In this document: in pieces, positions 26,364 through 33,282 of the stretch
Numbering within the stretch: the stretch's first letter is position 1
How the letters are laid out: each line of letters opens with the position of its first letter
Assembly (NCBI GenBank): GCA_013349825.1
Contig: DUYW01000003.1
Span: forward strand, 1 to 48,972
From: Gammaproteobacteria bacterium
GTDB taxonomy: Bacteria > Pseudomonadota > Gammaproteobacteria > GCF-002020875
Direction of reading: 5' to 3'
Length of the DNA stretch: 48,972 bases
Translations under genes and position numbers: made by a program
Notes under the pieces: generated by a model
What the model was told of the DNA's origin: nothing
Databases searched by the model: none
The model's input: the letters and a program-made list of their open reading frames with translations, nothing else

Positions 26364-28530
<2,167 letters not shown>

Positions 28531-28689: not shown

Positions 28690-30447
28690 TTAGCTATGGT
28701 CAGGACTGGAGCGGTTGAGTTGCTCAAACAGGTGGAGGATCTCATCATGGAAGGGGGTTGCAAGGAGCTGTTCTGTCAGGGGCTTTGCCATGTCCAGCCG
28801 GGTGTTGAGTACTGCCTGTTTAACCTCGGGCAGGGCTGAGGGGCTCATACTGAATTCACGTAACCCCATGCCAAGCAGCAGGCGAGTATAACGCTCATCA
28901 CCAGCCAGCTCTCCACAAAGAGAGACGGGGATGTTATTGTGGCTGCCAGCCTTGATGACCATATGTATCAAGCGCAGTACAGCAGGGTGTAGAGGGTCAA
29001 ATAGATAGTTTACCTGGTCGTCCGTTCGGTCAATGGCCAGTGTGTACTGTGCCAGGTCATTGGTGCCGATGGAGAGGAAATCCAGGCATTGTGCAAAGCC
29101 ATCTGCTGAAAGTGCGGCAGCCGGAGTCTCAATCATAGCACCTACTTTGAGTTCTGGATCATAGGAAACATTGTTAGAATCAAGATGTCTTTTCTGTTCT
29201 TGTATATGGTTTTGGATCTGCACAATCTCCTGCAAACTGGTGACCATTGGCACCATCATCCGGATCTTTCCATGGGCTGAGGCGCGAAGAATGGCACGAA
29301 TTTGGGGGATTAACAGGTCAAGATTTTTCAGTGAGAGACGGATGGCCCGTACGCCGAGTGCAGGGTTATCAGCACCCTCCATTTCAGCAATGGCTGGAAT
29401 TGGTTTGTCGGTGCCGATGTCGAGTGTACGGATGGTGAGTGTGGCACCGTTGATCATCTCTACAGTTGCTCGGTAATTTTCATACTGTTCTTCTTCAGTC
29501 GGGAGTGTTTTACGATTGAGGAAGAGGAACTCTGTGCGGTAGAGTCCGATGTCTCTACAGCCTGCCTGCTGCATAATCTCTATTTCACCGGGTAGCTCTA
29601 CATTGGCTTGCAGTGAGATCGTGATATTGTCACGGGTTACGGCCGCTTGAGAACGCAGTTTGTTGAGTGACTCCTGGTGGTCACGTTGCTGCTGTTGTAA
29701 TGATTGGTAGTGTGTAATGGTTAAGGGGTCTGAATTGATTAGAATCATCCCGTTGTTACCATCCAGAATGAGTGATTCACCATCCTGCAGGTAGCGGTGG
29801 CTGTTGCCGGCCCCCATGACTGTCGGGATATGGAGGCTGCGGGCAAGAATGGCGCTGTGAGAATTGGGTGCACCATGTTCGGTGATGATTCCGGCTACAC
29901 TCTGCTGGTGAAATAGAAGAATATCAGAGGCACTAAGGTTATCAGCCACAATGATTCTGTTGTTCTCATCCTCTTCCGGCTCAAGCAGTTCCTGGGTGTC
30001 ATTCTCCTGTTGTAGCAAGAGTTGCATGATGCGGTTGATGACATGGTCAATATCATCTTTACGGGTACGTAGATAAGGGTCCTCCATCTCTTCGAAAACC
30101 TGTACCAGAGTATCTCGCTGCTGTTTGAGTGCCCATTCTGCATTGCAGTATTGGCGGCGGATCAATTTTACGGGTGCCCGACTGATGGCGTTATCTTCCA
30201 GCATCAATAGATGGGCATCAATAAAGTCTGTGACCTCACCGGGAACTCCGGCTGGCACCTTTGCACGTAGTTCAATGAGCTGATCACGGGCACCATCCAG
30301 TGCGCTGTTGTAACGTTCAATCTCAGTATCAACCAAGTATTCCGGTACAGTATATTCCGCAATATCGGGTTGTCCGTGCTCCATCAGGTAGGCTTTTCCG
30401 AGAGCAATTCCACGAGCAACGCCGATGCCATGTAACATGATGCTCAT
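28690..30447 (-). CDS. ptsI: Phosphoenolpyruvate-protein phosphotransferase (PTS enzyme I)
   Basis: 585 residues, complete. N-terminal HPr-binding domain (about 1-145), phosphohistidine domain with HGAPNSHSAILARSLHIPTV (active His at about 197), and PEP-binding barrel with RTEFLFLNR, GTNDLAQYTLAIDRTDDQVN and the catalytic Cys in SLCGELAGDERYTRLLLGMG. No GAF domain, so it is EI rather than PtsP. EI moves phosphate from PEP to HPr. The start overlaps the rapZ stop by 4 bp (ATGA). In related genomes a mannose-type EIIA and HPr lie between rapZ and EI; both are absent, so its partner must be elsewhere or lost. Residues look intact, suggesting the gene is still selected. Confidence 0.93.
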   Translation of the reverse strand: MSIMLHGIGVARGIALGKAYLMEHGQPDIAEYTVPEYLVDTEIERYNSALDGARDQLIELRAKVPAGVPGEVTDFIDAHLLMLEDNAISRAPVKLIRRQYCNAEWALKQQRDTLVQVFEEMEDPYLRTRKDDIDHVINRIMQLLLQQENDTQELLEPEEDENNRIIVADNLSASDILLFHQQSVAGIITEHGAPNSHSAILARSLHIPTVMGAGNSHRYLQDGESLILDGNNGMILINSDPLTITHYQSLQQQQRDHQESLNKLRSQAAVTRDNITISLQANVELPGEIEIMQQAGCRDIGLYRTEFLFLNRKTLPTEEEQYENYRATVEMINGATLTIRTLDIGTDKPIPAIAEMEGADNPALGVRAIRLSLKNLDLLIPQIRAILRASAHGKIRMMVPMVTSLQEIVQIQNHIQEQKRHLDSNNVSYDPELKVGAMIETPAAALSADGFAQCLDFLSIGTNDLAQYTLAIDRTDDQVNYLFDPLHPAVLRLIHMVIKAGSHNNIPVSLCGELAGDERYTRLLLGMGLREFSMSPSALPEVKQAVLNTRLDMAKPLTEQLLATPFHDEILHLFEQLNRSSPDHS

Positions 30448-31361
30448 TGAGGTGTAACCTCCTTCAGTTGGCGGTGGTGGATGTTTAGAGCACAGTGCAG
30501 AATCCAGCTATTTTCGCTGTCTTCATCTGCGTTGTCTTGCAATTTTTGCAGCTCTTCCATAACTTTTTCAATCATATAGACGGAGCGATGACGCCCTCCT
30601 GTGCAACCGATTGCAATTGTTAAGTAGGCTCGGTCTGTTGAGAGAAAGTGAGGAATCCAGCGTTGCAGGTAGAGGCTGATATCTTCAATCATCTGTCCTG
30701 TCTCTTCAGTCTGCTCAAGAAAGTGGGCCACCTTAGTGTCCTGCCCTGTCATGTGTCGTAGTTCAGGTTCCCAGTGGGGATTGGGGAGACAGCGTGCATC
30801 AAAGATAAAATCAGCATCTTTAGGTGCGCCATGTTTAAAACCGAAAGATTGTAGTTTCAAAAACAGGAGGTTGTGTTTCTGCTCAGTGATCCACTGGATC
30901 TGTTTCCGGAGTTGATAGATATTGGTTTGAGAGCTGTCGAGGCGGAAATCAGCACTGGATGCAATGGGGGCTAGCTGTTCAATTTCCTGATGGATTGAAC
31001 TCTCTAATGTAGGGTTTTCGCGACTTAACGGGTGGGGGCGACGTGACTCCCCAAAGCGGCGGATAATGGTCTCTATATCGGCTTCGATAAAGATGAGTTG
31101 ACACTCTACATCAGGGGTGTGGTGGAACTCTTTATGCAGAAGCTCGGGGAGTTGATGTAGCTTCTCTGAGTGATTACGCACATCAATTGAGAGGCCGATC
31201 AATTGGAATTTCCCTTGCAGGATTGGTAAGGCCTCGCTGCTGAAGGCAGGGAGCAGTTCAATGGGAAGGTTATCTATACAATACCCTCCCTGGTCTTCAA
31301 TGGCGTGTAGCGCAACACTTTTTCCAGCACCGGAAAGACCGCTGATGACAAAGAGGAGCAT
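30444..31361 (-). CDS. rapZ: RNase adapter protein RapZ (YvcJ family P-loop protein)
   Basis: 305 residues from ATG 31361: MLLFVISGLSGAGKSVALHA with Walker A GLSGAGKS, YCIDNLPIELLPAF, SRRPHPLS, and the C-terminal IGCTGGRHRSVYMIEKVMEE. The frame stays open to 31430, but RapZ homologues begin at the later Met and the extra part runs through a hairpin. In E. coli RapZ senses glucosamine-6-phosphate and guides RNase E to the small RNA GlmZ. The C-terminus has an extra stretch (about 20 residues, LQDNADEDSENS region) compared with E. coli. It sits between hpf and ptsI. Confidence 0.93.
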   Translation of the reverse strand: MLLFVISGLSGAGKSVALHAIEDQGGYCIDNLPIELLPAFSSEALPILQGKFQLIGLSIDVRNHSEKLHQLPELLHKEFHHTPDVECQLIFIEADIETIIRRFGESRRPHPLSRENPTLESSIHQEIEQLAPIASSADFRLDSSQTNIYQLRKQIQWITEQKHNLLFLKLQSFGFKHGAPKDADFIFDARCLPNPHWEPELRHMTGQDTKVAHFLEQTEETGQMIEDISLYLQRWIPHFLSTDRAYLTIAIGCTGGRHRSVYMIEKVMEELQKLQDNADEDSENSWILHCALNIHHRQLKEVTPQ

Positions 31362-31404
31362 AGATTTGATCTCTCTTGGAGTATCTTTGGGGGGTTCAGT
31401 CAGA

Positions 31405-31434
31405 CAGGTTGGCGACGAAAGGGTCGCCAACCTG
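31405..31434 (-). other. Perfect 12-bp hairpin in the hpf-rapZ spacer
   Basis: CAGGTTGGCGAC (31405-31416) and GTCGCCAACCTG (31423-31434) are exact inverted repeats around a 6-nt loop. On the transcribed (minus) strand the structure lies 43 nt before the rapZ start. No T-tract follows, so it is not an ordinary terminator. Possible roles are an mRNA processing or stability element or a site controlling rapZ expression. It occupies the place of ptsN in related clusters. Confidence 0.8.
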
Positions 31435-31463
31435 GATTACTTGTTCGACCAAAAGAGCCGGCA

Positions 31464-31484
31464 GGTTATAGTCTGCAGATAACC
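31464..31484 (-). other. Second hairpin directly after hpf
   Basis: GGTTAT (31464-31469) pairs with ATAACC (31479-31484) over a 9-nt loop that contains CTGCAG. It begins 2 nt after the hpf stop codon on the minus strand and is followed by GGCTCTTTTGG, a weak T-run. It may be a weak terminator or part of a folded hpf-rapZ leader with the hairpin at 31405-31434. Confidence 0.45.
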
Positions 31485-31486
31485 CC

Positions 31487-31777
31487 TTAACGGCGGCTAT
31501 TCTGCTTCTCTTTATGTTTAATTACCTGACGATCCAGTTTGTCGATCAGGCCGTCAATTGCAGCGTACATATCTTCATTTGTACACTCTGCAAAAAGGTC
31601 GGCTCCACTGACGTGTAGTGTTGCTTCAGCCTTCTGGCGCAGTTTTTCAACACCAAGAACAACATGAACATTGGTTACATTGTCGAAATGGCGCTCCAGC
31701 TTAGACACTTTTCCAGTGACATACTCATTGAGTGATGGGGTGACTTCGACATGATGGCCGGTAATATTCAGCTGCAT
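31487..31777 (-). CDS. hpf: Ribosome hibernation-promoting factor, short form (HPF)
   Basis: 96 residues, MQLNITGHHVEVTPSLNEYV, with VEKLRQKAEATLHVSGADLF and DMYAAIDGLIDKLDRQVIKH. Short HPF binds the 30S decoding site and, together with RMF in enterics, helps form 100S dimers in resting cells. It lies 17 bp after rpoN, the standard rpoN-hpf pairing. The next gene should be ptsN but is not. Confidence 0.97.
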   Translation of the reverse strand: MQLNITGHHVEVTPSLNEYVTGKVSKLERHFDNVTNVHVVLGVEKLRQKAEATLHVSGADLFAECTNEDMYAAIDGLIDKLDRQVIKHKEKQNSRR

Positions 31778-31794
31778 TGTGCGCTCCTTATTAT

Positions 31795-33282
31795 TTATAG
31801 TGATCGTTTACGTTCATTCGATGGAGGTATCGAAAGAATGTCCCTGTATTTGGCCACAGTTCTGCGGGCCACCTTTACACCTTTCTCTGCCAGCATGGTC
31901 GCGATACGGTTGTCGCTGATGGGCTTAGCCGGATCCTCACTATTTACAATTTGGCGGATCATTGCCCGCACGGCTGTAGCTGAGGTTCCATCGCCATCTG
32001 CTGTATTGAGTTGGCTTGAGAAGAAGTATTTGAGTTCAAAGATTCCCTGGGGAGTCTGAGCATATTTGCTGGTTGTGACGCGTGATATGGTTGATTCATG
32101 CATCTCAATTGCATCTGCAATGGTACGCAGGGTGAGAGCCTTCATCTTCTCAGGCCCCTCTTCCAAAAAATCGGACTGCATCTGAAAAATATGAGAGGCA
32201 ACCTTGAACAGCGTTTCATTGCGGTTTTGGAGGCTCTTTAGAAACCAGCGAGCCTCCTGAATATTGTGGGTGATGTACTCTTTCTCATCACCACTGTGTT
32301 TCTGGCTTTTCAGTGTCTGGTAGAAGGGGCTGATGCGCAGCTTTGGGCTGGTTTCCGGAGTTAGCTCGATCTCCCAGTGATCTCCCCGTTTCTGTACGAT
32401 CAGATCGGGAATTACATATTCAACCGGGGGCTCTTCAATTTGCTCACCGGGACGAGGGTCTAATGTACGGATCAGGGCGAGTGCCTGGGTAACTGTTTCA
32501 GCGTCACTTTTAAGTTTTTTACTGATCTGCTCCAGCGATTGGTTGCTGTTCAGGTTGGAAATCAGTTTGAAGTGGTTCTCGATCCAGTTAAGTGCGACAT
32601 TTTTTGCCCGGGACTCTTCATTCAGTTGTTGTAGCTGAAGTTTTAGGCACTCTTGCAGGTTTCGTGCACCGACGCCGGGTGGGTCAAACTGTTGAATAAG
32701 ATGAAGCTGAGTGATGACCTCTTCCATTTCGACTTCTGGATCTTCCAGGTCAATAGAGTGAATCAACTCATCCAGAGAGACTTCGAGGTAACCTTTGTTA
32801 TCGATTGAGTCGATGAGTGTCAGTGCGATACTGTAGTCACGATCAGAAAGGGTGCGGGCGTGGAGTTGCCAGATCAAGTGGTCCTGTAGAGAGGCACTTA
32901 CAGAGTGGACCTCCTGAGGTTCAATCTGCTCGCCTGGTGAGCTGTTACCCAGCATTGAGGGGATATCGTAAGTATCTTCCCAGCTGCTGTCACTCTCCAG
33001 CTCTTCAGGGATACTCTCAGATTCATTACTTGATGCCGTTTCGGTTGTAGCATCGCTCTCGGTGCTGTTGTTCGAACTGTTCTCCGCAGTTTCGCTACTA
33101 TTTTCAGGTGTCCCCTCTTCGTCACTCTCCCCCTCTTCCAGCAGAGGGTTGCTTTCAAGGATCTCCTGCACTTCTTGTTGAAGCTCGATAGCAGAGAGTT
33201 GCAGCATGCGGATCGCATGTTGCAATTGCGGGGTCATCTTGAGTTGCTGACCAATGCGGAGGTTAAGAGATTGATTCAGCAT
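31795..33282 (-). CDS. rpoN: RNA polymerase sigma-54 factor
   Basis: 495 residues. Region I (LRIGQQLKMTPQLQHAIRML, Gln-rich), an acidic Ser/Glu/Asn-rich low-complexity region II (about 50-105), core-binding region III, HTH (TLRTIADAIEMHESTISRVT) and the C-terminal RpoN box ARRTVAKYRDIL. Sigma-54 reads -24/-12 promoters and needs AAA+ activators. It heads the rpoN-hpf-rapZ-ptsI part of the minus-strand series, 181 bp after lptB. Confidence 0.98.
   Translation of the reverse strand: MLNQSLNLRIGQQLKMTPQLQHAIRMLQLSAIELQQEVQEILESNPLLEEGESDEEGTPENSSETAENSSNNSTESDATTETASSNESESIPEELESDSSWEDTYDIPSMLGNSSPGEQIEPQEVHSVSASLQDHLIWQLHARTLSDRDYSIALTLIDSIDNKGYLEVSLDELIHSIDLEDPEVEMEEVITQLHLIQQFDPPGVGARNLQECLKLQLQQLNEESRAKNVALNWIENHFKLISNLNSNQSLEQISKKLKSDAETVTQALALIRTLDPRPGEQIEEPPVEYVIPDLIVQKRGDHWEIELTPETSPKLRISPFYQTLKSQKHSGDEKEYITHNIQEARWFLKSLQNRNETLFKVASHIFQMQSDFLEEGPEKMKALTLRTIADAIEMHESTISRVTTSKYAQTPQGIFELKYFFSSQLNTADGDGTSATAVRAMIRQIVNSEDPAKPISDNRIATMLAEKGVKVARRTVAKYRDILSIPPSNERKRSL

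Follow-up and report, generated by a model that had tools for sequence, protein, structure and literature searches.

The window, by which the whole analysed stretch of 48,972 nucleotides from a marine bacterium is meant, carries on its minus strand the gene run kdsD-kdsC-lptC-lptA-lptB-rpoN-hpf-rapZ-ptsI. The names hpf, rapZ and ptsI were confirmed with Pfam, and the other genes of the run were named from ORF translations and the gene order of E. coli. The features around the gap between hpf and rapZ are, in the direction of transcription:

31795-33282, minus strand: rpoN, upstream in the same run, aligning with E. coli rpoN-like loci
31487-31777, minus strand: hpf, ribosome hibernation factor (Ribosomal_S30AE, PF02482), upstream of the hairpin
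31362-31486, minus (sense) strand: structured hpf-rapZ spacer, 125 nt from the hpf stop to the rapZ ATG, z -4.75
31391-31486, minus strand: 96-nt domain, predicted only, in which GGGGUU (31481-31486) closes with AACCCC (31391-31396)
31464-31484, minus strand: second inverted repeat, 7 bp with a 9-nt loop, weak, formation not predicted
31405-31434, minus strand: hairpin with 12 perfectly paired bp and a loop of 6 nt that reads CCTTTC in the sense RNA, without a U-tract
30444-31361, minus strand: rapZ (PF03668 and PF22740), downstream of the hairpin
28690-30447, minus strand: ptsI (EI), whose start overlaps the end of rapZ

This overlap leaves no HPr gene between rapZ and ptsI. A rapZ start at 31430, on a TTG within the hairpin, would add an N-terminal extension. 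It was rejected in favour of the ATG at 31361, where the alignment of E. coli RapZ to the window protein begins; at locus L003, an in-frame stop begins 27 nt upstream of the rapZ ATG, which also speaks against the TTG. The earlier note had remarked that ptsN is missing at this place; no PF00359 match was found anywhere in the window genome (98% complete) or in five other genomes of the genus.

A strong hairpin is present in the hpf-rapZ gap. Its arms are CAGGTTGGCGAC and GTCGCCAACCTG, and the 12-bp stem by itself folds at -22.1 kcal/mol with a mean pair probability of 0.994. A distance of 43 nt separates the hairpin from the rapZ ATG, and the sense tail 3' of the stem, TCTGACTG, contains no U-tract. 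The full 125-nt spacer folds at -45.6 kcal/mol, and none of 200 shuffles folded equally well. The earlier note had described a 125-bp spacer and in it a hairpin perfect over 12 bp, with a loop of 6 nt, no T-tract and a distance of 43 nt to rapZ, and all of these particulars were recovered. It had also counted two hairpins. Both inverted repeats do exist, but the second is weak (-4.8 kcal/mol alone) and has an ensemble probability of about zero, because the predicted partner of its 5' arm is AACCCC at 31391-31396 (p 0.74-0.89).

Perfect stems of at least 12 bp with loops of 3-10 nt occur nine times in a sample of 437,736 nt of the window genome, against 0, 1, 0, 0 and 0 times in five dinucleotide shuffles. 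The longest perfect hairpin in the sample has 17 bp (L045, 10931-10972) and contains TTGGCGAC, a word that also occurs in the window stem, with the order inside-out. Among 83 same-strand spacers of 60-300 nt, drawn with crude ORF calls from the window and 20 other stretches of its genome, 14 have z < -2 and the hpf-rapZ spacer ranks third by z. The palindrome itself is unique: a pattern search allowing three mismatches returned one site, matched on both strands. A REP-type element or other repeat family was rejected on this ground, and the earlier note's concern that the palindrome might recur at many unrelated loci can be set aside. Searches of Rfam, with the GlmY and GlmZ families included, gave no match at gathering score in the window region 30800-32000, and the same result was obtained for the E. 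coli hpf-ptsN region and for ten other loci.

The same spacer was compared within the genus (six genomes, G000-G005). The order hpf-rapZ-ptsI is found in three of them, namely the window genome (G000), G002 and G003. In G001, G004 and G005, rapZ was not found, and ptsI directly follows hpf (loci L080, L081 and L082). The G003 spacer measures 129 nt and folds into two other strong hairpins (z -5.5 sense, -1.0 antisense), and in the G002 spacer no significant structure is seen on the sense strand (z 0.2; antisense z -2.5). Post-hpf spacers in G004 and G005 are 61 and 72 nt long and unstructured, and that of G001 has 22 nt. A structured post-hpf spacer is therefore present in two of the six genomes (G000 and G003), or in one of the two other rapZ-bearing ones. 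An attempt at covariation analysis saw no alignable sequence among the spacers of the three rapZ-bearing genomes. Lack of conservation in relatives, which the earlier note would have taken as evidence against its proposal, is thus seen for the stem sequence, absent from G002 and G003, but not for structure as such, given the other strong hairpins of G003.

A side finding concerns the phosphotransferase genes of the genus. EI with an intact active-site His motif is encoded in all six genomes, in which no HPr was detected (no PF00381 match and nothing over the cut-off of TIGR01003) and neither EIIA-Ntr (PF00359) nor EIIA-man (PF03610) was found. Of 50 other genomes of the class, 35 have PF05524, which also covers PtsP, and these 35 and no others have PF00381. 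The presumed HPr-binding subdomain of EI is 80% conserved within the genus, compared with 76-77% for the rest, so that EI still seems, from this pattern of conservation, to have a partner. A literature search on EI without HPr returned mostly unrelated papers. Legionella species with EI but without PtsN, PtsO or both are described in a review (PMC13104625), which suggests that the situation in this genus may have a precedent.

Post-hpf spacers were then considered across the class, in which 183 of 204 genomes gave an hpf match. The 133 loci read consist of L003, L004, E. coli K-12 and 130 others (30 plus 100), taken best-scoring first, meaning that their hpf genes are those most like the window's. 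Passed over were G090, G157, G208, G102, G076, G190, G180 and G075, together with all loci that scored lower. The family of G057 had only four genomes. Separately, the post-hpf hairpins of L145 and L150 were seen by eye to have TAATCGCC in both loops.

At 51 of the 133 loci, the next recognised gene begins 45-300 nt past hpf. The remaining 82 have no such spacer, so the element is not obligatory. The 51 spacers have a median z of -2.64, with 33 below -2 and 23 below -3. For comparison, z < -2 was found in 21 of 77 same-strand spacers drawn, with crude ORF calls, from the 20 genomes of the class whose post-hpf spacers are the most structured (p = 2e-5), although this control may be somewhat low, as the crude caller gave 22 of 38 such spacers in E. 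coli versus 30 of 43 with annotated genes. For this reason, two junctions of the same loci were added as controls. Only 13 of 50 rpoN-hpf spacers and 2 of 25 post-ptsN spacers have z < -2 (p = 4e-5 each against the 33 of 51 after hpf). Leaving out E. coli, the genus of the window and one genome from each of three same-genus pairs, 29 of 42 post-hpf spacers are structured.

These structures are found whether ptsN or rapZ is the next gene, and, except among close relatives, no common sequence was seen by eye. A U-tract is missing from 19 of the 25 post-hpf hairpins with stems of at least 8 bp. Stem length by itself shows a mild enrichment for stems of at least 10 bp (19 of 51 versus 12 of 77 controls, p = 0.005) and no significant one for stems of at least 12 bp (8 of 51 versus 7 of 77, p = 0.20). 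The sense fold is stronger than the antisense in 32 of the 51 spacers, a weak preference (p = 0.026), compared with 35 of 77 in the control.

A denser sample is available around E. coli. A search with E. coli hpf-ptsN DNA against the order of G131 matched 220 of 394 genomes, and 30 loci among the matches listed were read. Together with E. coli K-12, these make 31 loci. Three of them, none from the family f171 (presumed to be Enterobacteriaceae), have a spacer of 0 nt and were set aside; the other 28 belong to E. coli and to 27 f171 genomes. In all 28 spacers z was -2 or lower, and in a repeat run it was -3 or lower in 24. The sense fold is stronger than the antisense in 26 of 28 (p = 1e-5).

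Eleven of the 28 spacers are alignable and have in common a 30-pair hairpin, with 94.5% of cells paired. Both sides have changed at eight of its pairs, compared with one to four in slid controls and an average of 2.0 after shuffling, six of the eight resting solely on one divergent sequence, L245. RNAalifold gave 27 pairs, with both sides changed in seven. Further pair types number 15, no more than in shuffles (mean 16.0). In the 95% identical pair L260 and L261, the differences within the hairpin keep the pairs, by eye. Beyond the common hairpin, an extra palindrome of about 35 nt lies on its 3' side in E. coli and two relatives (L075, L236 and L237) and is missing in seven others (L238-L244). 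The spacers of L248 and L250 contain insertions relative to L245, that of L250 ending in TATACCC / GGGTATA; they look like a small mobile palindromic element.

Structured spacers are ordinary in E. coli K-12, where the 43 same-strand spacers of 45-300 nt in 150 kb of annotated sequence include 30 with z < -2. Among these, the hpf-ptsN spacer ranks ninth by z and has the lowest energy per base. Three other spacers of its operon, lptB-rpoN (z 0.4), ptsN-rapZ (-0.1) and npr-yrbL (0.9), are unstructured. What stands out is the contrast, in the class sample, between the post-hpf spacer and its neighbouring junctions.

In summary, the window holds a strong, unique stem without a U-tract; hairpins of unrelated sequence recur after hpf, where they are commoner than at nearby junctions of those loci; and one well-sampled family combines a sense-strand preference with compensatory changes. 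As the corresponding gaps of many related bacteria tend to hold unrelated hairpins, the window element most likely protects or splits the hpf mRNA and is not a RapZ switch. We give about an even chance to the reading that an rpoN-hpf-rapZ-ptsI transcript contains, between cistrons, an RNA hairpin with a protective or processing role that uncouples hpf from the genes downstream. Counting against it are the genus, in which G002 has no clear hairpin and only G000 and G003 have a structured spacer, the 82 loci without a spacer of 45-300 nt, and E. coli, in which structured spacers are common. The weak sense preference across the class, the dependence of most two-sided changes on L245 and the non-significant enrichment of stems of at least 12 bp count against it as well. 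Hairpins of this kind are known, and two of their features, a stable hairpin between two same-strand cistrons and no uridine tract after the stem, are found here.

In such a scheme, the genes would be transcribed together. In Salmonella, yrbG to ptsO is described as one mRNA, with ptsN alongside rpoN and yhbH, in the available part of PMC4480994. Endonuclease cleavage or decay of the downstream rapZ-ptsI part would start the process, 3'-5' exonucleases would then halt at the stem, and a stable (rpoN-)hpf mRNA would remain. HPF could consequently be produced at higher levels than RapZ and EI, and the effect would fall on hpf rather than on rapZ.

A broader generalisation can be offered more tentatively. 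The hairpin may represent a junction element of gammaproteobacterial rpoN operons, in which selection would keep a strong sense hairpin in any post-hpf gap long enough to hold one. These hairpins would mostly lack a U-tract and would arise again and again from unrelated sequences. By cutting the hpf mRNA out, such an element could allow HPF to accumulate at starvation. In the literature searched, no explanation was met for how HPF could exceed the sigma factor and the phosphotransferase genes of its own operon. A recurrent post-hpf hairpin with changing sequence would be a simple answer that can be tested, with the hpf-ptsN spacer of E. coli as a ready laboratory model.

Other explanations need to be weighed. 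One is that the hairpin serves the downstream side, insulating or stabilising the 5' end of a processed rapZ-ptsI mRNA (elsewhere ptsN) or shaping its translation start. Its position is compatible with this, as the 43 nt that separate it from rapZ are close to the median distance to the next gene of 48 nt at 25 loci. An element acting on a downstream gene fits less well with hairpins that follow hpf regardless of whether ptsN or rapZ comes next, or with the rarity of structure after ptsN, and we regard this explanation as unlikely.

A role at the DNA level, with the palindrome as binding site for a transcription factor regulating the downstream gene's promoter, is harder still to sustain. The perfect symmetry of the window stem would suit a dimeric DNA-binding protein, and at L145 and L150, from one genus, the hairpin overlaps, by eye, a promoter-like TTGACG-17-T[CG]TAAT. 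Against this, sigma70-like sites, the only promoter type covered by the test, are not enriched in the 51 post-hpf spacers (three sense and four antisense, with one to four in shuffles). The strong sense bias of the E. coli-like spacers and the single copy of the palindrome in its genome also point away from an operator, making this reading quite doubtful.

An attenuator or terminator, stopping part of the transcripts after hpf, is improbable to a slightly greater degree. At least five T within 8 nt follow 6 of the 25 post-hpf hairpins with stems of at least 8 bp, but the tail of the window stem lacks a U-tract. A terminator scan lists the window stem on the other strand only, with a weak T-run, and the nearest long ORF on that strand outside the antisense of the operon ends at 28530.

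Least probable by far is RapZ autoregulation through binding of the stem, which the earlier note had considered conceivable and for which the one argument is that the stem adjoins rapZ. According to the available text of PMC7430671, joint substitution of K270, K281, R282 and K283 abolishes RNA binding by E. coli RapZ, and RNA binding is restricted to Enterobacteriaceae. The aligned residues of the window protein are D, E, V and T (the K270 column is less sure because it adjoins a 14-residue insertion), so the RNA-binding residues are replaced. GlmZ was not found in any of the three genomes searched (G000, G002 and G003), which fits the expectation from the same text, and many loci with post-hpf hairpins have ptsN, not rapZ, as the next gene. 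The idea is accordingly not supported. RNase processing or protection, which the earlier note had also considered, is the class of explanation best supported by the comparisons made here.

The protective or processing hairpin preferred here can be set beside several known systems. Like an intrinsic terminator, it is a GC-rich stem-loop after a stop codon, but it has no sense U-tract and is followed by a gene of the same run. REP and BIME elements are palindromic repeats between genes; the window palindrome shares this location but is single-copy within three mismatches. With the RapZ ligands GlmY and GlmZ, the point of likeness is that the window has a stem-loop near a RapZ gene. The locus differs in having no Rfam match at gathering score, no GlmZ in the three genomes searched and a RapZ lacking the basic RNA-binding tail.

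In Staphylococcus aureus, a 3'-5' exonuclease targets the 3' end of the hpf mRNA (PMC11347170, available text), but that end is a terminator, whereas the window element is an internal hairpin. In Pseudomonas aeruginosa, hpf is described as having its own promoter, with transcripts abundant in dormant biofilm cells (PMC13159725, available text). Literature searches returned no hairpin described between hpf and ptsN or rapZ, and neither hpf nor rpoN appears in the main text of PMC5927463.

The closest counterparts are the protective hairpins of differentially decaying operons, such as malEFG (Dar and Sorek 2018, PMC5927463, as far as the available text describes them). Those hairpins generally lie inside coding regions, unlike the window hairpin, which is predicted from sequence and sits in a spacer. 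In E. coli, 26 of 34 upstream-stabilised gene pairs have a stable hairpin immediately before the point where the stable part stops, and no U-tract comes after these hairpins. The window element resembles them in being an internal, stable stem without a U-tract, and in being expected to favour the upstream gene.
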